DNA of 64,000 nucleotides from Pseudomonadota bacterium (GTDB lineage Bacteria; Pseudomonadota; Alphaproteobacteria; Rhodospirillales; Magnetospirillaceae): assembly GCA_021848545.1 (NCBI GenBank), contig JAJZUL010000006.1, forward strand, positions 1 to 64,000, in the 5' to 3' direction. The notes under the pieces are model-generated. The model was not told where the DNA came from. It worked only from the letters and a program-made list of their open reading frames with translations, and ran no database searches. Every line of letters begins with the position of its first letter. Within the stretch, counting starts at the first letter, position 1. A program made the position numbers and the translations under genes. This document shows positions 29,528-58,062 of the stretch, in pieces.

Positions 29528-29670
29528 GGCAATCCTGCTCCTCCCTGGGCACCCCGCGTTTCACATCGCGGTCGGGATGCGCCAGATGATCCTGTCCCGG
29601 TAGGAGGGGAGCGGTCACCGGACAGGCCGTTTCCGCTCCCTCTTCTCCCTCACTCCAACGGGCTTTTGCC

Positions 29671-30285
29671 TTATTTGTTGTTGTTGCGCGCCTCGATCTC
29701 GGCCGCCTTGGCCAGGATCTTGTGCAACTCGCTGGTTTCCTTGACCTTGTGCGGCATGCCGATATGCATCCGCTTGGTGCGAACCATGCCCAGCGCGATC
29801 TTCATATTGGCCATGCCACGCTTGTACCCCTCGCTCATTCCGAAAGCGAAGTAGTACTTGGCCGTGACCAGACGCTCGTCGGTCCGTCCATATTTGGTGG
29901 CGGACCACCAGAACGCCTTGGCGAACAGGGCATTGTCGGAGTGGGTCGCTTCGGCATAGCCCTCGCGGACTGCCAACGTCGCCAGGTCATGCAGAATATA
30001 TGTGACCGGCACCTTGCGAGGACAACGGACCACGCAATTATAGCAGGACACGCAGTTCCACAAGGTGTTGGAGGTCAGCACCTTCTCCTTGAGGCCGGCG
30101 CGGATCATCATGAACAGCTTGCGCGGGCCGTAATCCATCTGAGTACCGATGGGGCAGCTTCCCGAACAGGTGCCGCACTGCATGCACAGCGCCATGCGGT
30201 CGCCGCCATCGACGTTCTCATAGACCCAACGGGCGAAGTTGAGATCGTACTTCTGCTTCGGGGTGGGGGAGGCAGCTTGGCTCAT
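29671..30285 (-). CDS. hdrC: HdrC-like iron-sulfur subunit
   Basis: 204-residue ferredoxin-like protein with two [4Fe-4S] motifs: CMQCGTCSGSCP at 34-45 and CVSCYNCVVRCP at 78-89. The following ~110 residues are helical and polar, with no membrane spans. This distinguishes it from QmoC, which fuses an HdrC-like part to a heme b membrane domain. It starts 3 bp after the qmoB stop codon, so coupling is likely. It probably wires HdrB to QmoB. Confidence 0.9.
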   Translation of the reverse strand: MSQAASPTPKQKYDLNFARWVYENVDGGDRMALCMQCGTCSGSCPIGTQMDYGPRKLFMMIRAGLKEKVLTSNTLWNCVSCYNCVVRCPRKVPVTYILHDLATLAVREGYAEATHSDNALFAKAFWWSATKYGRTDERLVTAKYYFAFGMSEGYKRGMANMKIALGMVRTKRMHIGMPHKVKETSELHKILAKAAEIEARNNNK

Positions 30286-30288
30286 GGA

Positions 30289-32544
30289 TCAGAACCCCTT
30301 CATCGGATTGAAGCCGATGGCCATGATCTGCTCGACGAAGCCGTCGATGACCTTGGGCAGACGATCGGCGTCGGCGATCGACGCCTCCACCTGAACCACC
30401 CGTTCCGGCTCCAGCATCATGCTTTTCAGCGTCTCGCCGATCTTGCCCAGACGTTCGGCCGCCATGGCCGACCCCTTGACGAAATGGCACTGGTAGTCGT
30501 CGCCGGCCTTGCAGCCCATCAGCATCACGCCGTCATAGCCGCCCAGAAGGGCTTCGGACACGCACAGCAGGCTGACCGAACCCAGGCAGCGCACCGGCAG
30601 GACCCGGACGAAGGCCGACCAGTTGTTATGCTTGATGCCCGCCATGTCGAGCGCGGGAACCGCGTCGTTTTCGCAGGCGATCAGCAGCAGCCGCGGCTTG
30701 CCGGAGAACTCGTCGGGGATGTTGACCGACTTGATCTGGGTGACCAGCGATTCGACCGAGTAATTATCGAACGAGATGGTCCGCACCGGGCAGGCGCCCA
30801 TGCAGGTGCCGCAACGCCGACACCGGGTCGAATTGACGCTGGGGAAGCCCTCTTCGGTCTCATCAATGGCGCCGAACGGACATTCCACCGTGCAACGGCG
30901 GCATTTGGTGCACTGGTTCAGCCCGATCTTGGGGTAGGACAGATCGCCCACCCGCGGATGCAGGGCGGCGCCGGCCGCGGCCGAACGGACCGCCTGAACC
31001 GCCTTCATCACCGCGCCCTGCGCGTCCTCTTCCGCCTCGGCCCAATCCATCGGCCGGCGCACCGGACCGCAGGTATAGATGCCCGAACGGCGGGTTTCGT
31101 AGGGGAAGCAGATGTAGTGGGAATCGGCGAAACCGTCGTGAAGCACCGGCAGATGCGGGCCTTGGCGGTATTGCAGATTGAGCAGGGACGCCCCCTCGTA
31201 CACCACCTGTTCGCGGCGTTCGTGGGCGGGCGGCGCCTCGCCGGCATAGCCCGCCACCTTGATGGGGGCTTCCGGATCGACGTCGCCGTGCAGCTGCGGG
31301 TTTTCGCCGGCCTCGGAGGGCAGCATGGTGTTGGTGGAATTGGGCACCATGCCGGTGGCCAGCACCACCATGTCCAGACCCTGGAGCGGAATTTCCTCCT
31401 GCACCAGTTCGTCGGCGACGGTCACGGTGAGATCCGAGCCCACCGCCTTGACCTTGCCCTTGATGAAGATGACGCCCGCCGACTGGGCGGTGCGATACAG
31501 CTCCTCGGCGGTGCCGGGAGTGCGCATTTCTTCATAGATGACGAAGCAATTGGTGGTGGGATCGGTTTCGATCAGTTCCAAAGCCTGCTTCAGCGACGTG
31601 GCGCAGCAGGTGTTGGAGCAGTAGGGCAGATGCGCGGGATCGCGCGATCCGGCGCATTGCACGAAAGCCACCGATTTCAGCGCCTTGCCGTCGGATTTGC
31701 GGGTCGGACGCCCCTCCTTCAGCATGGCCTCGAACTGAACGTTGGTCACCACGTCCGGCGAAGCGCCGTAACCGAGATGCCCCAGCTTCTCGGCCTCGTA
31801 GGGCCGCCAGCCGGTGGCGATGACGATCGCGCCCACATCCTCGACCGCGCCGTCGGACAGGGTCACCGCGAACTTGCCCGGCATGCCGGCGGTGCGGGTG
31901 ACGGTCACGCCCATCCGCACGGTGATCTTGCCTTCGCCCTGCACCTTCGCCACCAGATCGGCGATGTTGTTTTCTTCAGGCTGGGCATAGGGCGGACGGT
32001 GGGGCAGACGCTTCGACGCGTCCACCGCCCAGCCGCCCAGGCGGTCGGAGCGCTCGATCAGCAGCACGTCATGACCGACGGCGGCCGCTTCCAGGGCCGC
32101 GTTCAGACCGGTGACGCCGCCGCCCAGAACGCAGATGCGCTGGGAATATTCGCCCTCGATCCAGGGCGTCGGCGGATTGATCTTCGGCGCCGAGGCCAGG
32201 GCCATGCGCAGATAATCCTCGGCCAGCATCTGGGTGTCCTCGTCACCGGCCGGATGGCTCCAGATCACCTTTTCGCGCAGGTCGGCGCGGATCAGGGTGT
32301 TGGGCTCGAAGGCGAAGCGGTCGGTCATCACCCGCGCCGAACAGGCGGCGACGATGACCTGATTGACCCCACCCTCGATGTCGGAGCGGATCATCCCCAC
32401 CCCTTCGTCACTGCACAGACAGGCGTGGCTCTTCGGTTCCAGCTTGTATTCGCTCTTGGAAACCTTCTCCAGCGCATCCATGTTCAGCGCCTCGCCGATG
32501 CCGCAGCCGCTGCACAGGTAGACGCCGGTATTCCTCTCACTCAT
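30289..32544 (-). CDS. qmoB: QmoB-like flavoprotein (HdrA-ferredoxin-MvhD fusion)
   Basis: 751 residues. An N-terminal cysteine region (CSGCGIGEAL, ACLCSDEGVG) precedes an FAD-binding HdrA core with GGGVTGLNAA at 141-150. The HdrA-type cysteine segment CSNTCCATS follows. Two [4Fe-4S] motifs, CTKCRRCTVECP and CRRCGTCMGACP, lie at about 545-586. A C-terminal MvhD-like domain (about 615-751) has conserved Cys (MGCKAGDDYQC). This order is that of QmoB, which with QmoA exchanges electrons with APS reductase. It starts 27 bp after qmoA. Confidence 0.92.
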   Translation of the reverse strand: MSERNTGVYLCSGCGIGEALNMDALEKVSKSEYKLEPKSHACLCSDEGVGMIRSDIEGGVNQVIVAACSARVMTDRFAFEPNTLIRADLREKVIWSHPAGDEDTQMLAEDYLRMALASAPKINPPTPWIEGEYSQRICVLGGGVTGLNAALEAAAVGHDVLLIERSDRLGGWAVDASKRLPHRPPYAQPEENNIADLVAKVQGEGKITVRMGVTVTRTAGMPGKFAVTLSDGAVEDVGAIVIATGWRPYEAEKLGHLGYGASPDVVTNVQFEAMLKEGRPTRKSDGKALKSVAFVQCAGSRDPAHLPYCSNTCCATSLKQALELIETDPTTNCFVIYEEMRTPGTAEELYRTAQSAGVIFIKGKVKAVGSDLTVTVADELVQEEIPLQGLDMVVLATGMVPNSTNTMLPSEAGENPQLHGDVDPEAPIKVAGYAGEAPPAHERREQVVYEGASLLNLQYRQGPHLPVLHDGFADSHYICFPYETRRSGIYTCGPVRRPMDWAEAEEDAQGAVMKAVQAVRSAAAGAALHPRVGDLSYPKIGLNQCTKCRRCTVECPFGAIDETEEGFPSVNSTRCRRCGTCMGACPVRTISFDNYSVESLVTQIKSVNIPDEFSGKPRLLLIACENDAVPALDMAGIKHNNWSAFVRVLPVRCLGSVSLLCVSEALLGGYDGVMLMGCKAGDDYQCHFVKGSAMAAERLGKIGETLKSMMLEPERVVQVEASIADADRLPKVIDGFVEQIMAIGFNPMKGF

Positions 32545-32571
32545 TTTCGTCTCTCCTAAACGGCCCTGCGA

Positions 32572-33825
32572 TCACGCCATCGTCGCGCGAATGGCTTTCA
32601 GCGCGGCAGCGGTGGCGGATTGCACCGACATCGACACGTCGAGCGGCCCCGCTGCCACGCCGGCCGAGATCGTCTCGCCTTCGGGGAAGATGAAGCCGTA
32701 ATCGTCGAGATCGCCGTCGAAGGCGGGCATGTCGCCCTCGGCCGTCGACGGCTGCATGCCGGTGGCCAGAACCACGAGATCGTAAGGTTCGGCATAGACC
32801 TCGCGGGTCAGCGTGTTCTCGCCGCACAGGATGGGGTTGTCGCCAGCGCCGGGGTCGATGCGGGCGGGCTTGGATTTCACGAAGCGGACCTGGGGGTCGT
32901 CCTTCACCCGCAGCAGGAAGGATTCCAGCTTATCGTGGGCGCGCAGGTCGATGTAATAGACGTCCACCACCGCGTCGGCCAGTTGTTCGCGGACATAGGC
33001 CGCATGCTTCATCGAAGCCAGGCAGCAAATGCGCGAGCAATAGGCCAGATGGTTCAGGTCACGCGACCCGGCGCACTGGATCAGGGCGATTTTCTTCGGC
33101 GCCTGACCGTCGGAGGGACGCAGGATCTTGCCCTTGGTCGGCCCGTCCGGCGACGCCAGACGCTCCATTTCCACGTTGGTGATGACGTTGGGCAGGTCGT
33201 AGCGATAGGCGGTCAGTTTCTCCGCCGGATAGGGACGCCAGCCGGTGGCCCAGACCACGGCGCCGACCTCGACGTCGAAGGTCTCTTCCTTCTCGTCCAG
33301 ATCGACGGCGCCGATCTTGCACGCGGCCTTGATCGCCTCGCCCTCGGGCGTGCCCGCCACCGAGCCGTCGATCACATAGCGCATGGGGAAGGCCATGGTG
33401 TGGGGCAGATAGGCCGCCTTCACCTTGTCCATATTGTAATTGAACGGGTTGGCGATCTCGGAGGTCGCAGCCCGCCCGCAATCGCCGCAGGCGGTGCAAT
33501 TGGGCTTCACATGGCGGGGCGACGTCTTCACCGTCACCGTATAGCCGCCGGCGCCACCTTTCACCGCGGCCACGGTGGCCATGGTGAACACTTTGATGCG
33601 CCGCGACTTCTTGATCCGCTGGAAATTGATCTCGAGGCCGCAGGTGGGATGGCACAGCTTCGGGAAATACCGATTCAATTGGGCTACCCGGCCACCCAGG
33701 GTCGGCGACTTTTCGACCAGCACCACGTCATGACCAGCTTCGGCGGCCTCGACGGCGGTGGTGATGCCGCTGATACCGCCGCCAACCACCAGAATGGTGC
33801 GGCTGCGGGTTGTCGACTCCATCAT
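32572..33825 (-). CDS. qmoA: QmoA-like flavoprotein (HdrA family)
   Basis: 417-residue FAD protein with a Rossmann motif VVGGGISGITTA near residue 15. It has the HdrA segment PTLGGRVAQLNRYFPKL and cysteine clusters CHPTCG, CTACGDC and CSRICC for iron-sulfur binding. It lacks the ferredoxin and MvhD domains of QmoB, as expected for QmoA. In sulfate reducers and some sulfur oxidisers QmoA binds AprA/B and moves electrons to or from the quinone pool. It is the second gene of the operon, after sat. Confidence 0.92.
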   Translation of the reverse strand: MMESTTRSRTILVVGGGISGITTAVEAAEAGHDVVLVEKSPTLGGRVAQLNRYFPKLCHPTCGLEINFQRIKKSRRIKVFTMATVAAVKGGAGGYTVTVKTSPRHVKPNCTACGDCGRAATSEIANPFNYNMDKVKAAYLPHTMAFPMRYVIDGSVAGTPEGEAIKAACKIGAVDLDEKEETFDVEVGAVVWATGWRPYPAEKLTAYRYDLPNVITNVEMERLASPDGPTKGKILRPSDGQAPKKIALIQCAGSRDLNHLAYCSRICCLASMKHAAYVREQLADAVVDVYYIDLRAHDKLESFLLRVKDDPQVRFVKSKPARIDPGAGDNPILCGENTLTREVYAEPYDLVVLATGMQPSTAEGDMPAFDGDLDDYGFIFPEGETISAGVAAGPLDVSMSVQSATAAALKAIRATMA

Positions 33826-33893
33826 GCTCCCCTCTCTTGAACGTCACCGTCTCAAACAGGCGGACTTGAAATAACGGACGGATAAGGTTGGGT

Positions 33894-33920
33894 GGGGTTC
33901 CTCTATCGGCGAGGAACCCC
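33894..33920. terminator. Hairpin between sat and qmoA
   Basis: Perfect 10-bp arms GGGGTTCCTC and GAGGAACCCC with a 7-base loop, 10 bp after the sat stop codon. There is no T-run on either strand. It may be a partial terminator or an mRNA-stability element that sets the sat to qmo ratio. Confidence 0.55.
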
Positions 33921-33929
33921 GTCCCGACC

Positions 33930-35105
33930 TCACTTATTGAGGCTGGCGTAGTACTTCTGCAGGATCGCCACCACTTCCGGGCGGCTGAATTCCGGCGGAA
34001 TCGGCTCGCCCTTCGACAGCATCTCACGCTGCTTGGTGCCGGAGATGTTGACCTGATCCTCCTTGCCGTGGGGGCAGGTCTTGGCGGTCGCCATGCCGTA
34101 GCACTTCTTGCAATAGAACGTGATGTCGATCTTCAGCGGCTGGGTTTCCAGCGCGCCCGGCCACAGCGTATCGAAGATATGCTGGGCGTCGAACGGGCCG
34201 TAATAATCGCCGACGCCGGCATGGTCGCGGCCGACGATCAGATGCGAGCAGCCGAAATTCTGACGGATCAGGGCGTGGATCAGGGCCTCGCGCGGGCCGG
34301 CATAGCGCATCTCGATGGGATAGCCGGCCTGGATCACGGTGCCCGGCACGAAGTAATTGTCGATCATGGCGCCGATCGCCTCGGTGCGGACCTCGGCCGG
34401 AATATCGCCCGGCTTCAGCTTGCCCAGCACCTGGTGGATGAACACGCCGTCCAGAACCTCGACCGCGATCTTGGCCAGATGTTCATGGCTGCGGTGCATG
34501 GGGTTGCGGGTCTGGAAGGCGGCGACCTTGGACCAGCCCTTTTCGGCGAAAATGGCGCGGCTTTCGGCCGGGCGCAGATACAGGCCCTTGTACTTGGCCG
34601 GATATTCGCCTTCGGACAAGCACAGCACCCGACCGGCCAGATTGACCGGCCCCTGAGCGTTCACCTTCTGCACGCCCGGATGGGCGGTGTCGGTGGTGCG
34701 ATAGACGTGCTGGTTTTCGAAAGCCTTGTCGATGGCGTACTTCTCGGTGACTTCCATCACGGCCATGATTTCGCCGGTCTCGCCGTCGACCAGCGCCACT
34801 TCCTCGTCCAGGCCGATGGAATCGGCCAGTTCGGTGGTGGTCGACAGGGTGATGGGAATCGGCCAGAACAGACCGTTCTTCATGCGCATATCGGCGCACA
34901 CGCCTTCCCAATCAGCCTTGCCCATGAAACCGTCGAGCGGCGTATAGGCGCCCATGGCGAACATGATGACGTCGGAGGTTTCGCGGCTCGTCATCGGCAC
35001 CTTCTTCAAGGTGGCGGCGCGCTTGAGAACTTCCTTGCGTTCGACTTCAGGCAAAAGCAGCGGCTTGAGCGAGCCACCGCCGTGAGGCTGGACCAGCTTG
35101 GACAT
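33930..35105 (-). CDS. sat: ATP sulfurylase (dissimilatory type)
   Basis: 391-residue homo-oligomeric sulfate adenylyltransferase. In sulfur oxidation it makes ATP and sulfate from APS and pyrophosphate. Catalytic motifs are [11 protein letters not shown] and [10 protein letters not shown]. The zinc site C-x2-C...C-x-H is visible as [15 protein letters not shown]. It lacks an APS-kinase domain. I chose the ATG at 35105, behind GGAGAGGG; ATG at 35108 is nearly equivalent. It heads the sat-qmoA-qmoB-hdrC-hdrB operon. Confidence 0.96.
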
Positions 35106-35229
35106 CATTCCCTCTCCATCCACAATCTTTATCGTCCGGTGCGCATGAACATCCGGGGCGTTTAGCCGTCCCTCGGCGGCGCATCATGAATCCCTAATTT
35201 TCCACGAGATGCCAGCGAAATCTCCCGTT

Positions 35230-35616
35230 TCACTCCAATTCATTGTATTTCAAAGCTTTGCCATGTACCTTGGAAACCGGATAACGACTATGGTTAAGGT
35301 CGATCTTGCTTTTGGCGGCTTCCCCCAGATCGATCCCCGCATGTTCGCACAGCAGCAACAAATAGAGCAGGACATCGGCGCATTCCTCGCCCAGGCGGCG
35401 GCGCATGTCGGGATCGCCCAGCGCCGTCTCGAACTCGTCGTCGCTTTTCCACTGGGCCAGCTCCTGGATCTCGGCCGCCTCCAGCGCCAGGGACAGCATC
35501 AGATTCTTGGCGCTGTGGAAACGCTTCCAGTCGCGGGCGTCACGGAATTCGATCAGGCGCCGGGTCAGCGTCGCCAACACGTCCTTGTCCGCGGCCGCGT
35601 CATCCGTCTGCGCCAT
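35230..35616 (-). CDS. MazG-like nucleotide pyrophosphohydrolase (dCTPase/RS21-C6 type)
   Basis: 128 residues in the all-alpha NTP-pyrophosphatase fold. The metal-binding motif is visible as EAAEIQE (ExxE type) followed by EECADVLLY (ExxD). Relatives hydrolyse dCTP or other nucleotides to the monophosphate and PPi. A GGAGGAATGGC site precedes ATG 35616. It lies 124 bp upstream of sat on the same strand and divergent from aprBA. Its product PPi is a Sat substrate, but a functional link is speculation. Confidence 0.85.
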   Translation of the reverse strand: MAQTDDAAADKDVLATLTRRLIEFRDARDWKRFHSAKNLMLSLALEAAEIQELAQWKSDDEFETALGDPDMRRRLGEECADVLLYLLLLCEHAGIDLGEAAKSKIDLNHSRYPVSKVHGKALKYNELE

Positions 35617-35679
35617 GCCATTCCTCCCCCCGTTGGCCTCGTCATCAAACCGTCTTTGCGCCGGTGGTACGTCGGCGAT

Positions 35680-35708
35680 TGCAAATATGTCAAACGCGTA
35701 ATATGAAT
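35680..35708 (+). promoter_or_regulatory. Candidate sigma70-type promoter for aprBA
   Basis: TTGCAA (35680-35685) and TATGAA (35703-35708) are separated by exactly 17 bp, each matching 4 of 6 consensus bases. They lie in a locally AT-richer stretch. The leader of about 130 nt would include a bulged hairpin (35736-35761). Confidence 0.3.
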
Positions 35709-35848
35709 GGGCCATAGCTGTAGCCCGAGAACGAGCGCACCGGCACCTGCTGGTGTGCGCGTTTCAGTGCTGCGACGTTCGAGGGAGACCCGCCAGAGAC
35801 AGGTCGCCGGGAGGCGATTTGTCGCAAGGCTCCATTGGGGAGGTTTTT

Positions 35849-36271
35849 ATGCCCACGTTTGTCCATACTCAGAAGTGCGACGGCTGCAAGGGTGGTGAAG
35901 TCACCGCTTGCATGTACATTTGCCCCAACGACCTGATGAAGCTCGATACCACCCGGATGAAGGCGTTCAATCAGGAACCCGACCAGTGCTGGGAATGCCA
36001 GTGCTGCGTCAAGGCTTGCCCCCAGCAGGCCATTGAAGTCCGTGCCTATCAGGATTTCGTGCCCATGGGCGGCGCCGTCATCCCGATGCGTACCGATAGC
36101 GCGATCATGTGGACCATCAAGTTCCGCGACGGCGAAGTGAAGCGGTTCAAGTTCCCCGTGCGCAACACCCCGGTCGGTTCGATCGACCCCTACGGCAACA
36201 AGCCCGCGCCCGGCGATCTGGACAGCCCGCTGTTCTTCACGGAAGCCGGCAAGACCCTGCCGACCATCTGA
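35849..36271 (+). CDS. aprB: Adenylylsulfate reductase beta subunit
   Basis: 140 residues. The N-terminal ferredoxin region carries the cysteines of two [4Fe-4S] clusters: CDGCKGG...CMYICP and CWECQCCVKACP, with the insertion typical of AprB. The tail (IDPYGNKPAPGDLDSPLFF) wraps around AprA in known structures. It passes electrons between the AprA flavin and the Qmo complex. A GGGGAGG site precedes the ATG at 35849. aprA follows after 39 bp. Confidence 0.96.
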   Translation: MPTFVHTQKCDGCKGGEVTACMYICPNDLMKLDTTRMKAFNQEPDQCWECQCCVKACPQQAIEVRAYQDFVPMGGAVIPMRTDSAIMWTIKFRDGEVKRFKFPVRNTPVGSIDPYGNKPAPGDLDSPLFFTEAGKTLPTI

Positions 36272-36310
36272 CCCCGGTCCAAAGCGCACTTCGCAGGAAG
36301 GAAAAAAAAT

Positions 36311-38236
36311 ATGTCCGAATACTCTTTCGGCAACCCGGAAATTATTGAAATCGATACCGATGTCCTGATCATCGGCGGCGGCATGTCCGCTTGCGGCGCG
36401 GCTTACGAAGCCAAGCGCTGGGCCGGCAACGACCTCAAGATCACCCTGGTTGACAAGGCCGCCCTTGACCGCTCCGGCGCCGTCGCCATGGGCCTGTCGG
36501 CCATCAACACCTATCTCGGCCCGGATCGGGATCCCAAGGATTACTGCCGGATGGTTTCGGCCGACCTGATGGGCATCACCCGCGACGACCTGGTCTATGA
36601 CGTCGGCCGTCACGTGGACGATTCGGTGCATCTGTTCGAAGAATGGGGCCTGCCCGTTTGGAAGGACAAGGGCTCCGAGGGCGTTGCTCTGAAGGACGGC
36701 GGCAAGCCGGTCCGTTCGGGCAAGTGGCAGATCATGATCAACGGCGAAAGCTACAAGCCGATCGTCGCCGAAGCCGCCAAGAAGGCCCTGGGCATCGAGA
36801 ACATCATCGAGCGCTGCTTCATCGTGAAGATGCTGCTCGACGAGAACGAGCCGAACCGGATCGCCGGCGCCGTCGGCCTGTCGGTTCGCGAGCACAAGCT
36901 GTACGTCTTCCGCGCCAACGCCGTTCTGGATGCTTGCGGCGGCGCCGTGAACATCTTCCGTCCGCGGTCCACCGGTGAAGGCAACGGCCGCACCTGGTAC
37001 CCGGTGTGGAACGCCGGTTCGACCTACGCCATGGCGGCGGAAGTCGGCGCCGAGCTGACCATGATGGAAAACCGCTTCGTTCCCGCCCGCTTCAAGGACG
37101 GTTACGGCCCGGTCGGCGCCTGGTTCCTGCTGTTCAAGTCGCAGGCCACCAACGCCTACGGCGAAAACTACGTCGTCAAGAACGCCGACATGCTGGCCGA
37201 GTTCGCCCCGTACGACAAGGCGACCGTGGTCCCGACCTGTCTGCGTAACCACGCCATGCTGAAGGAAATGAAGGAAGGCCGCGGCCCGATCTTCATGGAC
37301 ACCCCGACCGCCATGGCGAAGCTGGCCGAGAAGATGACCCCGGCCGAAATCAAGCACCTGGAAGCGGAAGCCTGGGAAGACTTCCTCGACATGTGCATCG
37401 GTCAGGCCGGCGTGTGGGCCGGTATGAACATCCGTCCGGAACAGTCCATGTCCGAACTGATGCCGACCGAGCCCTATCTGCTGGGTTCGCACTCCGGCTG
37501 CTCGGGCATCTGGGTGTCGGGTCCGGAAGACCTGAACTCCCCGGCCGAGTGGAAGTGGGGCTACAACCGCATGACCACCGTCAAGGGCCTGTTCACTTCG
37601 GGCGACGGCGTGGGTGCGTCGGGTCACAAGTTCTCCTCGGGCTCTCATGCCGAGGGTCGTATCGCCGCCAAGAACATGCTGCGCTTCGTGCGTGACAACA
37701 AGGGCTTCAAGCCGAAGCTCAAGGGCGACATCAAGGCGATCACCGAGGAAATCTACCTGCCGGTGCGCAACTACATCGAGCACAAGGACAAGACGACCGC
37801 CGAGGACGTCAACCCCTACTACATCCTGCCGCGCTATCTGCAGCAGCGTCTCCAGAAGCTGATGGACGAGTATGTGGCGGGCATCTCCACCTATTACACC
37901 ACCAACAAGGTGATGTTGGAGACCGGCCTGAACCTGCTCAACATGCTGAAGGAAGACTCCAAGCTGATGCGCGCCAAGGACCTCCACGAGCTGATGCGCG
38001 CTTGGGAGAACTATCACCGCATCGTTGCGGCGGAAGCTCACCTGCGTCACATCCTGTTCCGCGAGGAAACCCGGTATCCGGGCTTCTACTACCGCGCCGA
38101 CCATCCGAAGCTGAACGAAGCCGAGTGGAAGTGCTTCGTCAATTCCCGGATCGATCCGGCCACCGGCGAGTGGCACATGCGCAAGGTTCCGCATGTGGAC
38201 ATGGTCGAGAAGCATTACGCCGGCCAGGGCCACTAA
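36311..38236 (+). CDS. aprA: Adenylylsulfate reductase alpha subunit
   Basis: 641-residue cytoplasmic flavoprotein that interconverts APS and sulfite plus AMP; in an oxidiser it forms APS. The FAD motif is IIGGGMSACGAAYEA. The conserved RPRSTGEGNGRTWYPVWNAG and LLGSHSGCSG segments carry the active-site Arg and His known from AprA structures. Codon use is strongly biased to C and G endings with many GGT and CGT codons, suggesting high expression. AGGAAGG precedes the ATG. Confidence 0.97.
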   Translation: MSEYSFGNPEIIEIDTDVLIIGGGMSACGAAYEAKRWAGNDLKITLVDKAALDRSGAVAMGLSAINTYLGPDRDPKDYCRMVSADLMGITRDDLVYDVGRHVDDSVHLFEEWGLPVWKDKGSEGVALKDGGKPVRSGKWQIMINGESYKPIVAEAAKKALGIENIIERCFIVKMLLDENEPNRIAGAVGLSVREHKLYVFRANAVLDACGGAVNIFRPRSTGEGNGRTWYPVWNAGSTYAMAAEVGAELTMMENRFVPARFKDGYGPVGAWFLLFKSQATNAYGENYVVKNADMLAEFAPYDKATVVPTCLRNHAMLKEMKEGRGPIFMDTPTAMAKLAEKMTPAEIKHLEAEAWEDFLDMCIGQAGVWAGMNIRPEQSMSELMPTEPYLLGSHSGCSGIWVSGPEDLNSPAEWKWGYNRMTTVKGLFTSGDGVGASGHKFSSGSHAEGRIAAKNMLRFVRDNKGFKPKLKGDIKAITEEIYLPVRNYIEHKDKTTAEDVNPYYILPRYLQQRLQKLMDEYVAGISTYYTTNKVMLETGLNLLNMLKEDSKLMRAKDLHELMRAWENYHRIVAAEAHLRHILFREETRYPGFYYRADHPKLNEAEWKCFVNSRIDPATGEWHMRKVPHVDMVEKHYAGQGH

Positions 38237-46352: not shown

Positions 46353-47189
46353 TCAAACCACCCTGAAGCGCTGCCGCCCCAGACCGGCCACCCCGCAGGC
46401 GACCCAGGAGCCGGTTTCCAGAAAGCGACCGCGCCCCAATCCCACGCCGGCCGGCGTGCCGGTCAGGACGACATCGCCCGGCATCAGCGCCATGAAACGC
46501 GACAGATAGGCGATCAGGGTCTTGACCCCGAACACCATGTCGGCGGTGGTGCCGTCCTGCATGCGGATTCCGTCCACGTCGCACCACAGGGCCAGACCTT
46601 GCGGATCGGCGATTTCGTCCGCCGTCGCCAGCCACGGCCCCAGGGGGCAGAATCCCGGTGCCGACTTGCCCTTGATCCACTGGCCGCCGCGATCCATCTG
46701 CCAGTCGCGGGCGGAAATGTCGTTGGCCACCATATAGCCCGCCACATGGGACAGGGCCTGATCCTCGGCCACCTGCCAGGTCGGCCGGCCGATCACCGCC
46801 GCCAGTTCGACCTCCCAGTCGAGCTTGGCGGTGCCCTGGGGAAAGGGCAGCGGATCGTTGGGGCCGGCCAGCGATCCCGGATGCTTGGAAAACACCACCG
46901 GCTCGGTCGGCATGGGCAGGCCGGTTTCAGCCACATGATCGCGGTAATTGAGACCGATGGCGATGATGGCGCCGATGCCGGCCACCGGCACGCCCAGCCG
47001 TTCGCCGGCCTCCACCAACGGCAGCGATTCCATATCCAGAGTGCGCAGCGCCTCCAGCCGGTCCGGCGCCAGCACGGCGGGGGTGATGTCGCCTTCGGTC
47101 ATCCGCCCGGACAGATCGCGCACCCGGCCGGCCCCATCGATCAGCCCCGGCCGCTCCGCGCCCCGCTCACCCCACCGCACCAGTTTCAT
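46353..47189 (-). CDS. Fumarylacetoacetate hydrolase (FAH) family protein
   Basis: 278 residues. The FAH core shows IGLNYRDHVAE, the metal-binding acidic residues in DWEVELA and the segment VANDISARDWQ, and the ending TGTPAGVG. Members are hydrolases, decarboxylases or isomerases of beta-keto acids. The substrate is not determined. Its start overlaps the stop codon of the upstream GGDEF-EAL gene (ATGA), which is an odd partnership. Confidence 0.88.
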   Translation of the reverse strand: MKLVRWGERGAERPGLIDGAGRVRDLSGRMTEGDITPAVLAPDRLEALRTLDMESLPLVEAGERLGVPVAGIGAIIAIGLNYRDHVAETGLPMPTEPVVFSKHPGSLAGPNDPLPFPQGTAKLDWEVELAAVIGRPTWQVAEDQALSHVAGYMVANDISARDWQMDRGGQWIKGKSAPGFCPLGPWLATADEIADPQGLALWCDVDGIRMQDGTTADMVFGVKTLIAYLSRFMALMPGDVVLTGTPAGVGLGRGRFLETGSWVACGVAGLGRQRFRVV

Positions 47190-49675
47190 GTCACCACCCG
47201 TCTGCTCAAAACCCCGGGAATTTCCCGGCTCGCCAGATAGTCGGTCATCGCCGCGGCCGACATCGGCCGCGCCAACAGGAACCCCTGAACCCGGTCGCAG
47301 CCGCTGGCCACCATCAGGGCGAGCTGTTCCTCTGTCTCGATTCCCGGCGCCACCACCGCCATGCGCAAACCGCGGGCGATACCGACGATGGCGGTGACGA
47401 TCTCCGCATCCTCGGTGCTGGCGCTGGCGCTGCGCACGAAGGATTGGCTGATCTTCAACGCCGCCGGTGGACGGTGCCGCAAAAAGGCCAGGGAGGAATA
47501 GCCGGCGCCGAATTCATCGATGGCGACATGAACCCCCAACCGGGCCAGGCCATTGAAGACGGCGCCGGTGGCGATCACCCGGTCGACGGCGGTGCCCTCG
47601 GGGATTTCCAAAAGCAGCCGCTCCGGCGGCATGCCGGTTTCCCCCAGGACACGGCCGATCATCTCAAGAAAATTGGTCTGGCGCAGTTGCCGCCCCGACA
47701 GATTGACTTCCAGTTCCAGCCCCTCGAATCCCATGCCGTGCCAGACGTGGGTCTGGCGGCAGGCGGTTTCCAGCAGCCACTGGCCGATGGGCTGGATCAA
47801 CCCGTCCTCCTCCACCAGCGGCAGAAACTGGGAGGGCGCCAACAGGCCGACATCGGGATGGTTCCAGCGCAACAGCGCCTCGATGGACGCCACCCTGCCG
47901 GTGGCCAGATCGAAGACCGGCTGATAATGCACTTCGAATTCGCCCCGCGCCAAAGCGCCGTCCAGCGCCTCCTCCAGGGCCAGACGCTCGAACGCCTGGG
48001 CGTTGACCGTCTCGGAATGAAAGCGATAAGCGTTGCGCCCCTGCTGCTTGGCCCGGTACATGGCGGCGTCGGCCAGCCGGACCAGCGATTGCGAATCGGC
48101 GGCATCCATCGGATAGATCGACACGCCGATGGATGAACTGATCTTGACGACGTCGGAGCCGATGTGGAACGGCTCGCTCAGGATCTTGAGGACCTTATGA
48201 GCCACCAGGGCGGCGTCGCGGGGGTCCTCGACATCCTCCAGCATCACCGTGAATTCATCGCCCGACAGGCGGGCCACGGTGTCACCCTGGCGGATCGAAG
48301 CCGAAATCCGTTCGGCGACCTGTTGCAGCAGCCGGTCGCCGGCCAGATGGCCCAACGTGTCGTTGACCTCCTTGAAGCGGTCGAGATCGACGAACATCAC
48401 CGCCACCAGCCCGCGATTGCGATGGGCGCGGGCCAGGGCGCGGGACAGCCGTTCCTGGAACAGGTTGCGGTTGGGCAGCCGGGTCAGGGGATCGTGATTG
48501 GCGGCGTAGCTGAGACGCTCTTCGATCTGCTTGCGCGACGTGATGTCGCCCATCACCCCCACGTAATTGGTGACCTCGCCCTCGGCGTCGCGCACGGCGG
48601 CGATATTCTGCCAGCTGACGAAGGTCTCGCCGTTCTTGCGCCGGTCCCAGATTTCGCCCTGCCAGCGCCCCTGCGTCTCGATGGCGTGCCACATGCGGCC
48701 ATAGAAATCGCGCCCGTGCCGCCCCGACGCCAGAAAACCCGGCGTGCGCCCCAGCACCTCGTCGGCCTCGTAACCGGTGATGTCGCTGAAGGCCGGATTG
48801 ATGCGGATGATGCGCTGTTCGGAATCGGTGATGAACAGGCCCTCGCCGGTGCTTTCGAACACGGTCGCGGCCAGACGCATATCGTCTTCCAGACGTTTGC
48901 GTTCGGTCACGTCCTCCACCACCACCACGGCGAACCGCAAGGTGTCGGCATCGGTGTCGCGCACGGCGGTCACCGTCACCCGGCCCCAGGCGACGCCGCC
49001 CTCGCGCCCGACGAAGCGCGACAGCATCTGGAAATTGTCATGGGTGGCCGCCACCAGATCGCCGAACAGGGAATCGTGCCGCCCGATATCGTCCGCGTGC
49101 AACAGCGACGACAGCGCCGTCCCATTGACGTCCTCGGCCCCGTGGCCGACCATGGCGGCAAAGGCGCGGTTGGCCGCCATGATCCGGCCATCGGCCGCGA
49201 CCAGGATCACCCCCAGCCCGGCATTGGCGAAAACCGCGCGGAACTGGGCTTCGCTGCGCCGCAATTCCAACCCGACCCGCGACCGTTCGATGGCATAGCG
49301 CACGGACCGGCGCACCAGATCGCCATCGCCCTGTCCCTTGACCAGGAAATCCTGCGCCCCCCGGCGCAATGCCGCCAGCGCCACTTCGTGATCGTCATTG
49401 CCGGTCAGCACCACCACCGGCACGAAAGGCTGGGCGGCGCGCAATTTCTCCAAGGTGGCGACGCCGAAGGAATCGGGCAGGGACAGATCGAGCAGAACCG
49501 CGTCCACCGGGCGCGCGGCCAGGACATCCAGCGCGGCCGCCAGGGTTTCCGCCACGATGGCGACGAAACCATCGCCATCCTGTTCTTCGAGATACAAGCT
49601 GACCAGCCGGGCGTCGCCGGGATTGTCCTCGACGACCAGAACCGTCTTCGCCGGCTTGCCCCCCGGGGACGACAT
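47186..49675 (-). CDS. [17 protein letters not shown] signalling protein
   Basis: 829 residues. A receiver domain (phospho-acceptor Asp63 in VLLDLSLPD) is followed by two PAS domains (about 150-400), a GGDEF domain (SGDEF motif, with FVDLDRFKEVND) and an EAL domain. The cyclase looks active. The EAL half keeps EALLRW and VNLSGRQL but has IDEFGAGYSS instead of the usual DDFG, KISQSF instead of KIDRSF, and APGIET instead of AEGVET, so it is probably catalytically dead. Start 49675 follows GGAGGGAACG. It follows a response regulator gene by 32 bp. Confidence 0.92.
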   Translation of the reverse strand: MSSPGGKPAKTVLVVEDNPGDARLVSLYLEEQDGDGFVAIVAETLAAALDVLAARPVDAVLLDLSLPDSFGVATLEKLRAAQPFVPVVVLTGNDDHEVALAALRRGAQDFLVKGQGDGDLVRRSVRYAIERSRVGLELRRSEAQFRAVFANAGLGVILVAADGRIMAANRAFAAMVGHGAEDVNGTALSSLLHADDIGRHDSLFGDLVAATHDNFQMLSRFVGREGGVAWGRVTVTAVRDTDADTLRFAVVVVEDVTERKRLEDDMRLAATVFESTGEGLFITDSEQRIIRINPAFSDITGYEADEVLGRTPGFLASGRHGRDFYGRMWHAIETQGRWQGEIWDRRKNGETFVSWQNIAAVRDAEGEVTNYVGVMGDITSRKQIEERLSYAANHDPLTRLPNRNLFQERLSRALARAHRNRGLVAVMFVDLDRFKEVNDTLGHLAGDRLLQQVAERISASIRQGDTVARLSGDEFTVMLEDVEDPRDAALVAHKVLKILSEPFHIGSDVVKISSSIGVSIYPMDAADSQSLVRLADAAMYRAKQQGRNAYRFHSETVNAQAFERLALEEALDGALARGEFEVHYQPVFDLATGRVASIEALLRWNHPDVGLLAPSQFLPLVEEDGLIQPIGQWLLETACRQTHVWHGMGFEGLELEVNLSGRQLRQTNFLEMIGRVLGETGMPPERLLLEIPEGTAVDRVIATGAVFNGLARLGVHVAIDEFGAGYSSLAFLRHRPPAALKISQSFVRSASASTEDAEIVTAIVGIARGLRMAVVAPGIETEEQLALMVASGCDRVQGFLLARPMSAAAMTDYLASREIPGVLSRRVVT

Positions 49676-49707
49676 CGTTCCCTCCGTTCCGCCCGCCGCC
49701 CCCGTCT

Positions 49708-50154
49708 TCAATTGGGCGGCAGCGTGACGACCGAACACCAATATTCCTCGATCGCCCGCACCACGGCGATGAAGCGGTCCAGATCGACCGGCTTGGTGAT
49801 GTAGCAATTGGCGTGCAGATCGTAGCAGCGCAGCACGTCGGTTTCCGCCTGCGACGTGGTCAGCACCACCACCGGAATCCGGCACAGATCCGGGTCCGAT
49901 TTCATTTCGGCCAGAACCTCGCGCCCGTCCTTGCGGGGCAGATTGAGGTCGAGAAGAACCAGCTGCGGGCGCGGCGCCGACGCGAACCCCCCCTCGCGGC
50001 GCAGAAAACTCATGGCCTCGACCCCGTCCACCACCACCTTGAGGCGGCTGGACATCCGTCCCTCCTTGAGGGCTTCCTGAGCCAGACGGGCGTCGCCCGG
50101 ATTGTCCTCGACCAGCAGGATATCGAAGGCTTCGGCAGACTGATGCGCGCTCAC
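49708..50154 (-). CDS. Single-domain response regulator (Rcp1-like)
   Basis: 148-residue stand-alone receiver. The acidic pair is in VEDNPGD, phospho-acceptor Asp69 in [13 protein letters not shown], and the conserved Lys in YITKPVD. It matches the Rcp1/CheY-like class that partners bacteriophytochrome-type kinases. The GTG at 50154 is chosen because TGGGAGGG lies at the right distance; an ATG seven codons upstream has none. It is probably cotranscribed with the REC-PAS-GGDEF-EAL gene. Confidence 0.9.
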
Positions 50155-50342
50155 GAGCGACCCTCCCAGATTCAAGGCATTGCGACTATAGTGTGCTTCC
50201 GCTCACGGGGAAAGCGGCCATGGGCCGGGCACCGCGCAAGGACCGCAAGAATGCCACCCCATACGAAAGACGGCGATTGCCTCCCCTCTTCAACAGGTAT
50301 TTAATATACATGAAAAGTAACCCCTTCCCGAGGGAGACGGAT

Positions 50343-50648
50343 ATGATCAAAACGGATTCCGACGGCTACCTGACCGACCCCGCCGATTGGAGCGAGGAGG
50401 TGGCGCGCGACATGGCCGAGCACGAAGGCATCGCGCTGACCGACGAGCATTGGGAAGCGCTGCGCTACATGCGGACCTATCTTGAGGAAAAGCAGGTCGC
50501 CCCCGACGCCCGCCATGTGATGAAACATCTGTCCGAGACGTTCGGCGCCGGGCGCAACCGCCTGTTCGAACTGTTCCCATACGGCTATGTTCAGCAGGCT
50601 TGCAAGATCGCCGGCATGCGCCGCCCCCGGGCCTGGAGCACCGGCTGA
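50343..50648 (+). CDS. DsrC/TusE-family protein with one C-terminal cysteine
   Basis: 101 residues matching the TusE/DsrC fold: DGYLTDPADWSEEVARDMAE, LTDEHWEALRYMR, and C-terminal ACKIAGMRRPRAW. DsrC carries sulfur on a penultimate Cys and uses a second Cys eleven residues before it. Here the upstream cysteine (Cys87) is kept and the terminal one is replaced by Trp98. It therefore cannot work as a normal DsrC or TusE sulfur carrier. The start at 50343 has GAGGGAGA upstream. A related gene follows 19 bp later. Confidence 0.85.
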   Translation: MIKTDSDGYLTDPADWSEEVARDMAEHEGIALTDEHWEALRYMRTYLEEKQVAPDARHVMKHLSETFGAGRNRLFELFPYGYVQQACKIAGMRRPRAWSTG

Positions 50649-50667
50649 CATCAACGGAGAAGACCCT

Positions 50668-51096
50668 GTGGACGTGACGGACGGGATGTATGGGGCGGAT
50701 GGGATGGAAACCGGAGAGGATTTGGCCTGGACCCGGCCGGTCCACCCCGCCCATATCCGCACCATCGAGGTCGCGGGTAGAAAAATCGCCACCGATGCCG
50801 AGGGCTATCTGGTCGATCGCGCCGATTGGAGCGAGGATTTCGCCCGCGCCCTGGCCGCCCGGGAAGGCGTGACCCTGACCGACGAACATTGGCAGGTGAT
50901 CGCCTTCATCCGCGCCACCATGAAAGCCAAGGGCCGTCACCCGTCCGTCCGCCAGATGATCCGCCATTTCGCCAAGGTGTGGGGACCGGAACGGGGCAAC
51001 AGCGCCCACCTCCACGATCTGTTCATCACCGGCGGCGGACCGCAGAAACAAGGCAACCGCCTGGCCGGCGCCCCGCGCATGCCGTCGGAGGGGTAA
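50668..51096 (+). CDS. DsrC/TusE-family protein without cysteines
   Basis: 142 residues. After a ~35-residue extension, the family segments appear: DAEGYLVDRADWSEDFARAL, LTDEHWQVIAFIR and GGGPQKQGNRLAGAPRMPSEG. No cysteine occurs in the whole protein; Asn stands where the upstream DsrC cysteine should be. A GTG start at 50668 with CGGAG upstream is preferred, and ATG 50689 is possible. Pairing with the preceding gene suggests a regulatory or scaffolding role. Confidence 0.82.
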   Translation: MDVTDGMYGADGMETGEDLAWTRPVHPAHIRTIEVAGRKIATDAEGYLVDRADWSEDFARALAAREGVTLTDEHWQVIAFIRATMKAKGRHPSVRQMIRHFAKVWGPERGNSAHLHDLFITGGGPQKQGNRLAGAPRMPSEG

Positions 51097-55358: not shown

Positions 55359-55484
55359 TCCGAATTTCACACGCACCCGCCGATTTGACCGCATCGAGGC
55401 CCGCCGCCGCCGCCGTGCCGCCCCTTGACGGCGGCACGGCGGCGGCCTATGACCGTAAAATCAATGTGGCATCGGGAGCAGATC

Positions 55485-56165
55485 ATGGGTCCTCTTAACG
55501 AGGCGGCCGGACCGGCGACGGTCGGATCGAACAATCGCCCCTTCACGCCGTCCTTGTTGCTGGGACTGGCCTTGCGGCCGGTGCCGCTGGCGCTGATCCA
55601 GCCGGCGCTGGACGCCCTGGTGGCCGCCGTGCGACGGCGTCATCCCGATCTGCTGGAACGGGTTTCCGCCTACGCCGATTCCGGCATCTGCATCGACCCC
55701 ACCGACCTTCCCTTCGTGCTGCTGCTGACCCTGGACCCGGCCCGGCCGCGCCTGACGGCACGCCGCGCGCTGGAGCCGGGCGAGGCGTCGGCCACCATCC
55801 GCGGTTCGCTGGACGCGCTGATCGCCCTGACCGACGGCAAGGTGGACGGCGACGCCCTGTTCTTCACCCGCAAGCTGATCATCGAAGGCGACACCGAAAT
55901 CGTGGTGGCGCTCCGGAACGCCATCGACGGCGCCGATATCGATCTGACCGAGGATCTGGCCGCGACCTGCGGCCCCCTGGCCGGCCCGGTCCGCTCGCTG
56001 ATCCGCGTCGCCGCCGGAGTGATCGGGCGGCTGGGCCAGGACATGGAAGCGGTGCGGGCGACGGTGATCGCCCCCGCTTTGGCGCGCGCCGAAATGCAAT
56101 CGGCCCGCATCGCCGCGGTGGAACGCGACGTCGCCCGGCTGCGCCGGACGGGGAGCGGCCGATGA
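55485..56165 (+). CDS. ubiT: UbiT, SCP2-domain accessory factor of O2-independent ubiquinone synthesis
   Basis: 226 residues. A hydrophobic sterol-carrier (SCP2)-like domain covers about 20-150, with DLPFVLLLTLDPARPRLTARR and GSLDALIALTDGKVDGDALFF. UbiT binds ubiquinone intermediates for the anaerobic hydroxylation pathway. The start at ATG 55485 has CGGGAG at good distance; an in-frame ATG at 55449 is possible. It overlaps ubiU by 4 bp. Confidence 0.9.
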   Translation: MGPLNEAAGPATVGSNNRPFTPSLLLGLALRPVPLALIQPALDALVAAVRRRHPDLLERVSAYADSGICIDPTDLPFVLLLTLDPARPRLTARRALEPGEASATIRGSLDALIALTDGKVDGDALFFTRKLIIEGDTEIVVALRNAIDGADIDLTEDLAATCGPLAGPVRSLIRVAAGVIGRLGQDMEAVRATVIAPALARAEMQSARIAAVERDVARLRRTGSGR

Positions 56166-57157
56166 ACCAGCAGCGTCCCGAACTGGTCTGTCCGGCCGGC
56201 ACCCCCGCCGCGCTGAAGACCGCGATCGAAGCCGGCGCCGACGCCGTCTATGTGGGTTTCCGCGACGAAACCAACGCCCGCAATTTCCCCGGCCTCAATT
56301 TCAGCCGCCCCGAGCTGAAGGACGCCATCGGCCTGGCCCACCGCAACGGCGCCAAGGTTCTGGTGGCGATCAACACCTTTCCCCGCGCCGGCGCCACCGA
56401 CATCTGGCATCGGGCGGTGGACGACGCGGTGACGCTGGGGGCCGACGCCCTGATCCTGGCCGATATCGGCCTGCTGGCCTATGCCGCCGAACGTCACCCC
56501 GAAGCCCGTCTGCATCTGTCGGTCCAGGCCGCCGCCTCCAACCCGGCCTCGATCCGCTTTTACGCCGAACGGTTCGGGGTGCGCCGGGTGGTGCTGCCCC
56601 GGGTGCTGACCGTGGCCGAGATCAAGGCGCTGAACGCCGAAATCGCCCCGATCGAAACCGAAGTATTCGTGTTCGGCGGCCTGTGCGTGATGGCCGAAGG
56701 CCGCTGCGCGCTCAGTTCCTACGCCACCGGCCAATCGCCAAACAGCAACGGCGTCTGTTCGCCGGCCGCCGCCGTCCGCTATGTGGAAACCGAAACCGGC
56801 ACCGCCTCGATGCTCGGCGAAATCACCGTCAACCATTTCCGCCATGACGAGCCGGCCGGTTATCCCACTTTGTGCAAGGGCCGTTTCGTCGCCCAGGATC
56901 AGGCGTCCTATCTGTTCGAGGAACCGACCTCGCTCAACACCCTGGGTCTGCTGCCCGATCTGATCGATGCCGGCATCACCGCCTTCAAGATCGAGGGCCG
57001 CCAGCGCGGCCGGGCCTATGTGGCGGCGGTGGTATCCGCCTTCCGCCAGGGGGTGGACGCGGTTCTGGCCGGGGGCACGCCGCCCGTGGCCAGCCTGGAC
57101 GCCATCGTCGAAGGCGGTCGCGAGACCGCCGGCGCTTATCGGAAGGCCTGGAGATGA
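56162..57157 (+). CDS. ubiU: UbiU, O2-independent ubiquinone hydroxylation (U32 family)
   Basis: 331-residue peptidase-U32-family protein. The four cysteines Cys175, Cys182, Cys199 and Cys238 show spacings of 7, 17 and 39, the same as the [4Fe-4S] ligands described in E. coli UbiU. The signature GGLCVMAEGRCALSSY is present. With UbiV it hydroxylates the quinone ring without oxygen, using another oxygen donor. It overlaps ubiT and ubiV by 4 bp each. Confidence 0.95.
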   Translation: MNQQRPELVCPAGTPAALKTAIEAGADAVYVGFRDETNARNFPGLNFSRPELKDAIGLAHRNGAKVLVAINTFPRAGATDIWHRAVDDAVTLGADALILADIGLLAYAAERHPEARLHLSVQAAASNPASIRFYAERFGVRRVVLPRVLTVAEIKALNAEIAPIETEVFVFGGLCVMAEGRCALSSYATGQSPNSNGVCSPAAAVRYVETETGTASMLGEITVNHFRHDEPAGYPTLCKGRFVAQDQASYLFEEPTSLNTLGLLPDLIDAGITAFKIEGRQRGRAYVAAVVSAFRQGVDAVLAGGTPPVASLDAIVEGGRETAGAYRKAWR

Positions 57158-58062
57158 ACCCCGCCCGTCTGACCCTGGGACCGCTGCTCTATAATTGGAG
57201 CGCGGAAGCGGTCCGCGATTTCTATTTCCGCATCGCCGACGAAGCCGATATCGATACGGTCTGCATCGGCGAAGTGGTGTGCGCCAAGCGGGCGCCGTTC
57301 CTGGCCCCCCAGCTGCCGGAAATCGTCCGGCGCCTGACCGCGGCCGGCAAGGAAGTGGTGCTGTCCACCCTGGCCCTGGTGATGTCGGCCGCCGATCTGA
57401 ACCTGATCGCCGAGACCGCCACCGACGACGGGGTCCTGATCGAAGCCAACGACGTGTCCGCCGCCGCCCTGGCGGGCGGGCGGCCCTTCGTCGCCGGCCC
57501 CCTGCTCAATATTTATAACGAGGATACCCTGGCCTGTTTCGCCGGCATGGGGGCGATCCGCGCCTGCCTGCCGGCCGAACTGCCGGCGACCGCCATCGCC
57601 ACCCTGGCGGAAAGCGCCTCCATCCCGCTGGAGATCCAGGCCTTCGGCCGCCTGCCGCTGGCGGTGTCGGCCCGCTGCTATGCCGCCCGGTCGCGCTCGC
57701 TGGCCAAGGACGGCTGCCGGTTCGTCTGCGCCCAGGACCCGGACGGCATGCCGGTCGACACCCTGGACGGCGTGCCGTTCCTGGCGGTCAACGGCACCCA
57801 GACCCTGTCCCACCATTATCTGTCCCTGCTGGGCATGCTGGCGCCGCTCAGGCAGGCCGGAATCGACCGTTTCCGCCTATGGCCGCAGACCGTGGACATG
57901 GTGGCTGTGGCCGACCTGTTCCGCCGGACCCTGGCGGGCGATCTGGACCCGGCCGAAGCCGGCGACCGCCTTGCCGATCTGTGCCCCGGCCGCGACTTCG
58001 CCGACGGCTATATCCATGGCCGCGAGGGGCGGGTTCTGGTGGATATGGAGATGGCCGACTGA
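57154..58062 (+). CDS. ubiV: UbiV, O2-independent ubiquinone hydroxylation (U32 family)
   Basis: 302-residue partner of UbiU. The cysteines Cys43 (EVVCAKR), Cys175, Cys188 and Cys192 (CYAARSRSLAKDGCRFVC) fit the [4Fe-4S] ligand pattern with spacings 13 and 4. It forms a heterodimer with UbiU in the cytosol. The gene starts at ATG 57154 inside the ubiU stop (ATGA). The ubiTUV order is complete and tightly coupled. Confidence 0.95.
   Translation: MNPARLTLGPLLYNWSAEAVRDFYFRIADEADIDTVCIGEVVCAKRAPFLAPQLPEIVRRLTAAGKEVVLSTLALVMSAADLNLIAETATDDGVLIEANDVSAAALAGGRPFVAGPLLNIYNEDTLACFAGMGAIRACLPAELPATAIATLAESASIPLEIQAFGRLPLAVSARCYAARSRSLAKDGCRFVCAQDPDGMPVDTLDGVPFLAVNGTQTLSHHYLSLLGMLAPLRQAGIDRFRLWPQTVDMVAVADLFRRTLAGDLDPAEAGDRLADLCPGRDFADGYIHGREGRVLVDMEMAD

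Follow-up and report, generated by a model that had tools for sequence, protein, structure and literature searches.

The window analysed here, a stretch of 64,000 nucleotides from a bacterium of the Magnetospirillaceae (contig JAJZUL010000006.1), encodes two adjacent DsrC-family proteins, which we call W1 and W2. Judging by the sequences compared, W1 is an ancient, widespread and conserved side-branch of DsrC with a tryptophan-capped arm. It is almost confined to genomes that have dsrA and is probably a helper or a brake of the DsrAB sulfur-oxidation pathway. W2 is a rare, Cys-free local companion that is probably not needed for W1's role. By the residues tested, neither protein is DsrC proper, the sulfur-carrying hub of Dsr metabolism, nor is either TusE. 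No description of a Trp-tailed DsrC subfamily was found in the papers searched. The features discussed below are, by position in the window:

28613-38236: aprB-aprA, a divergent sat and an hdrA/hdrA/hdrC/hdrB-like (qmo-type) set, 12-22 kb upstream of W1
47186-49885, minus strand: probable c-di-GMP enzyme; relatives also have it on the far side of the response regulator
49708-50175, minus strand: single-domain response regulator (PF00072), divergent; its place next to W1 is conserved in this family
50176-50342, no strand: intergenic region between W1 and the divergent response-regulator gene, site of the FNR box in relatives
50343-50648, plus strand: W1, a DsrC paralogue of 101 aa; Cys87 is its only cysteine, Trp98 occupies the terminal-cysteine position, and the tail is RPRAWSTG
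50565-50645, plus strand: C-terminal arm of W1, residues 75-101, FELFPYGYVQQACKIAGMRRPRAWSTG
50704-51096, plus strand: W2, the second DsrC paralogue; no cysteine, N-terminal hairpin kept, tail GGGPQKQGNRLAGAPRMPSEG

Start codons were assigned by comparison, and a simple script based on codon position served to call the neighbouring genes. With its closest orthologue (L060) as a guide, W2 has 130 aa from the ATG at 50704; a GTG at 50668 is an alternative start. The original prediction was of an adjacent DsrC/TusE-like pair without the terminal cysteine, the first protein having Cys87 and a Trp at the terminal position and the second having no cysteine. Translation, the Pfam and TIGR03342 matches and the AlphaFold folds all agree with this description. 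W1 matches the Pfam DsrC family PF04358 at 6e-31 (107.5 bits) and W2 at 3e-31 (108.5 bits), with a cut-off of 24.9, and both exceed the TIGR03342 cut-off; against the TusE profile NF008562 they score 79 and 81 bits, far short of its 191-bit cut-off. The two proteins are 39% identical. Their AlphaFold models have pLDDT values of 88-89, and the only significant PDB matches returned by Foldseek were DsrC/TusE structures: the W1 model aligns to 1SAU with a TM-score of 0.87, and the best match of the W2 model is 1YX3. These profile matches and the DsrC fold settle in the affirmative whether W2 belongs to the family, a point on which the prediction could have failed. Missing from W1 are the N-terminal beta-hairpin and some of the loop that precedes the arm. 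In its model the DsrC body is ordered and the last four residues (98-101, including Trp98) are disordered, so modelled as a tail that could be free to enter a partner.

DsrC proper carries two arm cysteines (CxxxxxxxxxxC), of which W1 has the first only and W2 neither, and the sulfur-receiving terminal cysteine of TusE is absent from both. W1 ends in QACKIAGMRRPRAWSTG, as against QACKIAGLPKPTGCV in the canonical DsrC of the host genome. Because the terminal cysteine is missing, neither protein can carry sulfur there as DsrC and TusE do, just as had been predicted. Nor is a cysteine hidden by a shift of frame: the other reading frames at the 3' ends of W1 and W2 yielded none in family context, and since orthologues have the same tails, there is no frameshift. 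The dN/dS of W1 is 0.04-0.36 (four pairs), which indicates purifying selection; that of W2 is 0.32-0.47 (five pairs), indicating weaker purifying selection and faster divergence than in W1. Together, the conserved tails and these ratios rule out a frameshifted gene or pseudogene.

To define the W1 subfamily, we scanned GTDB genome contigs with the patterns FELFPYGY and PD[AV]RHV[MIS][KR]H, which do not include the tail. The scan gave 358 candidate relatives, and the motif and neighbourhood counts use the best 80 of these loci. All of these best 80 of 358 end in C[KR][ILV]AGMx[RK]PRxWS[TS]G, and their hosts include Magnetospirillum and relatives, Rhodoblastus, Bradyrhizobium and Siculibacillus as well as Thiobacillus, Gallionella, Sulfuritalea and others. 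W1 keeps the DsrC arm segment FPYG...QACKIAG, and its tip, W-S-T/S-G, replaces the sulfur-accepting Cys. Across 47 aligned W1 proteins Cys87 and Trp98 are invariant, and conservation averages 93% in the arm (residues 75-101) versus 69% in the body. W1-type proteins were absent from the IMG/VR, phage and plasmid records searched, and we rejected a reading of W1 as a phage or plasmid auxiliary gene.

In a tree of 60 DsrC-family members, W1 forms one clade (support 100/100) that spans Alpha- and Betaproteobacteria. W2 (100/91), a GCS class (class II, 99/97) and a KRKGGY class (class V, 100/99) form the other clades. The position of the upstream cysteine is held by Asn in the GCS class, by Thr, Ala, Gly or Cys in the KRKGGY class and by Asn or Phe in W2, so the fold itself does not call for a cysteine at this site. 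That Cys87 is invariant while the other paralogue classes swap the residue freely argues against a purely inert decoy; the conservation pattern suggests that W1 needs a thiol. The earlier idea that these proteins act as decoys or regulators of the Dsr system is retained as the leading class of explanation. Six genes of the DsrC family are present in the host: besides W1 and W2, these are the canonical two-Cys DsrC, two more Cys-less members and, on host contig C34, a class II paralogue that keeps the terminal cysteine and ends GCS.

The distribution of W1 follows that of the Dsr pathway. W1-type calls required at least 115 bits, the next class of matches reaching at most about 108 bits. Among 199 sampled genomes of the host's order, 77 have dsrA; it is present in 29 of the 30 genomes with W1 versus 48 of the 169 without (Fisher p 5e-13, shared ancestry uncorrected). 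The sole W1 genome without dsrA in this sample, G071, is 76%-complete and has a canonical DsrC. Beyond this sample, 50 more W1 genomes from Alpha- and Betaproteobacteria were checked, and 47 gave a dsrA match; co-occurrence with DsrAB is a trait that W1 has in common with DsrC proper. In the order sample 48 genomes have dsrA but no W1, and we therefore regard W1 as an accessory that is not essential to the pathway. At three loci W1 directly follows dsrN, with a spacing of 29 (L126), 13 (L107) and -8 bp (L112). The host genome (G000) has dsrA and a canonical dsrC, and the gene set at 28613-38236 belongs to this sulfur-oxidation pathway as its branch from sulfite to sulfate.

Upstream of W1 we searched for the FNR box TTGAY-N4-RTCAA (TTGAYNNNNRTCAA). 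Among the 34 alphaproteobacterial W1 genes, 17 have a perfect box 5' of them, where shuffled sequences predict 0.08; these box counts, like the genome counts, are not independent, owing to shared ancestry. The box usually lies 57-78 bp before the W1 ATG, as in L076 (TTGACCATCGTCAA, 62 bp), and in a first set of relatives it was present at seven of the eight W1 genes but at none of the canonical dsrC (0/24), GCS-class (0/13) or KRKGGY-class (0/6) genes. Of the 383 remaining genes at the W1 loci, 10 have a perfect box. Such boxes occur at 2 of 47 W1 copies from Betaproteobacteria and others, and the window's own W1 copy has no recognisable FNR box, its best candidate matching 8 of 10 positions. 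The Fnr site of Magnetospirillum denitrification operons is TTGAN6TCAA (PMC4065386), and the W1 boxes match it.

W1 usually stands alone, often with a regulator gene divergent from it. Among the best 80 of the 358 loci, this regulator is of the MarR type in 13 and of the Crp/Fnr type in five. The MarR-family gene is conserved and mostly 120-175 bp off, in about 13 mainly betaproteobacterial loci (L105, L123, L125, L133, L136, L137, L140, L144 and L148 among them), and its product is a candidate regulator of W1. Respiratory genes are found at some loci: narGHJI-W1-norCB in L078 and L092 and W1-norCB in L096 (Rhodospirillales), narGHJI/SQR-like-W1-NnrS or norB in Thiobacillus, and an adjoining rubrerythrin-like gene in Paramagnetospirillum. 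An SQR-like (Pyr_redox_2) gene directly precedes W1 in six loci, and eight have one nearby. This FAD oxidoreductase, which has a C-terminal extension, was seen near W1 in L114, L126, L131, L138, L141, L151, L152 and L154 and is a possible W1 partner. In the window itself, positions 55425-58062 hold genes for oxygen-independent ubiquinone synthesis, first an SCP2-domain (UbiT-like) gene and then UbiU and UbiV; a UbiU-like gene is also near W1 in Thiobacillus loci.

These neighbourhoods could be taken to mean that W1 is a denitrification protein. We rejected this reading because co-occurrence of W1 with narG, napA and cytochrome d1 is weak among dsrA genomes: nitrate reductase is found in 23 of 30 with W1 versus 27 of 48 without (p 0.09), and there is no enrichment for cytochrome d1 (p 0.24). 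Neither the window genome nor G002, a relative, has narG, napA or cytochrome d1. Given this weak linkage to nitrate respiration, FNR control would point to low oxygen generally rather than to denitrification.

We tentatively propose, putting it somewhat below an even chance, that W1 is an oxygen-responsive, non-sulfur-carrying DsrC paralogue that serves as an accessory of the oxidative (reverse) Dsr pathway and docks where DsrC docks. W1 would be made at low oxygen, and its arm, by its similarity to that of DsrC, would dock in the DsrC groove on the DsrAB, DsrEFH or DsrMKJOP/DsrL side. The Trp tip would fill the site, sulfur being neither accepted nor donated, while Cys87 would supply a thiol able to form or sense a disulfide or persulfide and thereby react to the sulfur or redox state. 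In this way W1 would tune DsrC-dependent sulfur flow, most simply by competing with, slowing or gating it. Since the arm sequence is kept up to RP and no sulfur could be taken up at the tip, occupancy of the DsrC docking site appears to be the most economical mechanism. DsrE passes sulfur to the terminal cysteine of DsrC in A. vinosum, and the DsrC arm of sulfate reducers reaches into the DsrAB cleft (PMC3397948). The missing N-terminal hairpin and partial pre-arm loop might weaken the binding of W1 to DsrC partners. The great variation of W1 neighbourhoods between loci and the lack of an FNR box at the window's copy and at most betaproteobacterial copies also speak against the proposal. A bolder version, to which we give a low probability, is that W1 is a new DsrC-superfamily class: a Trp-capped, FNR-controlled brake or gate that plugs the DsrC groove of oxidative DsrAB, is reset via Cys87 and is the oxidative-pathway counterpart of a DsrAB modulator. 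A precedent for a small DsrAB accessory is DsrD, an allosteric activator of reductive DsrAB (PMC13047784); it is an unrelated protein of the reductive pathway and an analogy to W1 only.

Two other readings of W1 are, in our view, unlikely. RspA, according to Venceslau et al. 2014, is said to be a third DsrC-superfamily group in which the conserved cysteines are unneeded and which is possibly regulatory. W2, being Cys-free, fits this description; W1 departs from it by keeping an invariant upstream Cys and an invariant aromatic tip and by its tie to dsrAB. If W1 (and W2) were transcription regulators of the RspA kind, they would bind DNA via the helical core or act on the adjacent regulator to control sulfur genes, with no need of cysteines. 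The frequent divergence of W1 from a regulator gene (13 MarR, five Crp/Fnr, a response regulator and others) would agree with this, as would a very weak Foldseek resemblance to a LexA/winged-helix DNA-binding region (E 0.5-1). These LexA-like matches are far above the significance threshold, however, and we discarded them as evidence; the adjacent regulator also changes between lineages, and DNA binding leaves both the invariant Cys87 and the flexible Trp-tipped arm unexplained. In the other reading, Cys87 as the only reactive thiol would make W1 a sulfur or redox relay whose partner is not DsrAB but, for example, the adjacent SQR-like flavoprotein of Thiobacillus, Bradyrhizobium and Siculibacillus. 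The invariance of Cys87 in all of the best 80 of 358 loci, set against its variability in other classes, favours a relay, as do the six loci with an SQR-like gene immediately upstream and the eight with one nearby. Yet an SQR-like neighbour is absent from most W1 loci, and the interaction and sulfur transfer between DsrC and DsrE of A. vinosum need the terminal and not the upstream cysteine (PMC3397948).

The remaining readings are less probable still. W1 might shield the siroheme of DsrAB from NO or nitrite where sulfur oxidation is coupled to denitrification, which would suit the upstream FNR boxes, the narGHJI and norCB neighbours in L078, L092 and L096 and the Thiobacillus arrangement; the weak nitrate-reductase and absent cytochrome d1 enrichment, and the lack of narG, napA and cytochrome d1 in the window genome and G002, make this highly improbable. 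That W1 and W2 form a heteromer, with one subunit contacting the partner and the other the regulator or ligand, draws on their gene order: W2 is on the same strand and starts 8 bp (G002) or 55 bp (window) after the W1 stop. We think this very unlikely, as the operon-like arrangement is found only in the window and this one relative, W2 in G004 and G010 lies elsewhere, and most W1 genes occur without W2. Finally, loss of the terminal Cys and the faster divergence of W2 could be taken as signs that both are relics, degenerate and functionless copies of DsrC or TusE. The dN/dS values of both, the tail invariant in the best 80 of 358 loci and a clade spanning Alpha- and Betaproteobacteria make this scarcely credible, and for W1 it is already refuted.

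The original prediction had also treated W1 and W2 as a coupled pair, and here our results differ. The tree places both within the DsrC family, as separate clades. The W2 clade consists of four sequences, from 4 genomes among the 317 examined in the host's order, and in two of these W2 lies beside W1. The two therefore do not make up a conserved system, and we rejected that reading. An origin of W2 by tandem duplication of W1 is not supported either: W2 groups weakly with class V (92/90), although W1 and W2 as a single clade are not rejected (p-AU 0.32). W2 may share a partner with W1. G002, the second genome with the pair, has two dsrA genes (on contigs C16 and C25).

Set against DsrC of known structure (A. 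vinosum 1YX3; A. fulgidus 1SAU), W1 and W2 share the fold, and W1 also shares the FPYG...QACKIAG arm, the upstream Cys and the dsrA link. W1 differs in a tip two residues longer (W-S-T-G) with Trp for Cys, in having no N-terminal hairpin and in its shorter pre-arm loop, and W2 in lacking both cysteines. TusE, of the tRNA 2-thiouridine relay, belongs to the same family (PF04358, TIGR03342), but its working terminal Cys is missing from W1 and W2. Phage DsrC_1/TusE-like proteins are DsrC homologues that miss one or both cysteines (PMC4164917, PMC8190135), one of them having the first cysteine motif only (PMC8190135); none was W1-like in the collections searched. Many sulfur oxidisers have additional DsrC-like genes with roles still to be established, among them A. 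vinosum with its paralogues Alvin_0028, 0345, 0732 and 1508 (PMC3368242). An arm-keeping, Trp-for-Cys subfamily tied to dsrA, with an FNR box in many Alphaproteobacteria, makes the regulation of reverse Dsr directly testable. It also means that the terminal cysteine should be checked before a dsrC or tusE annotation is read as a sign of sulfur transfer.

Two minor observations concern the other Cys-less genes of the host. A member of the KRKGGY class, which is Cys-less or Cys-variable and is found in many families of the order as a single clade (100/99), lies at G000:C16:32847-33140 (L058:6842-7162); it starts MGYADLEK and ends PETKRKGGY. The sixth and more divergent DsrC-family protein (G000:C2:41898-42152, L059) has no terminal cysteine, ends PPHTRDESFGISH and groups weakly with a protein from G025.
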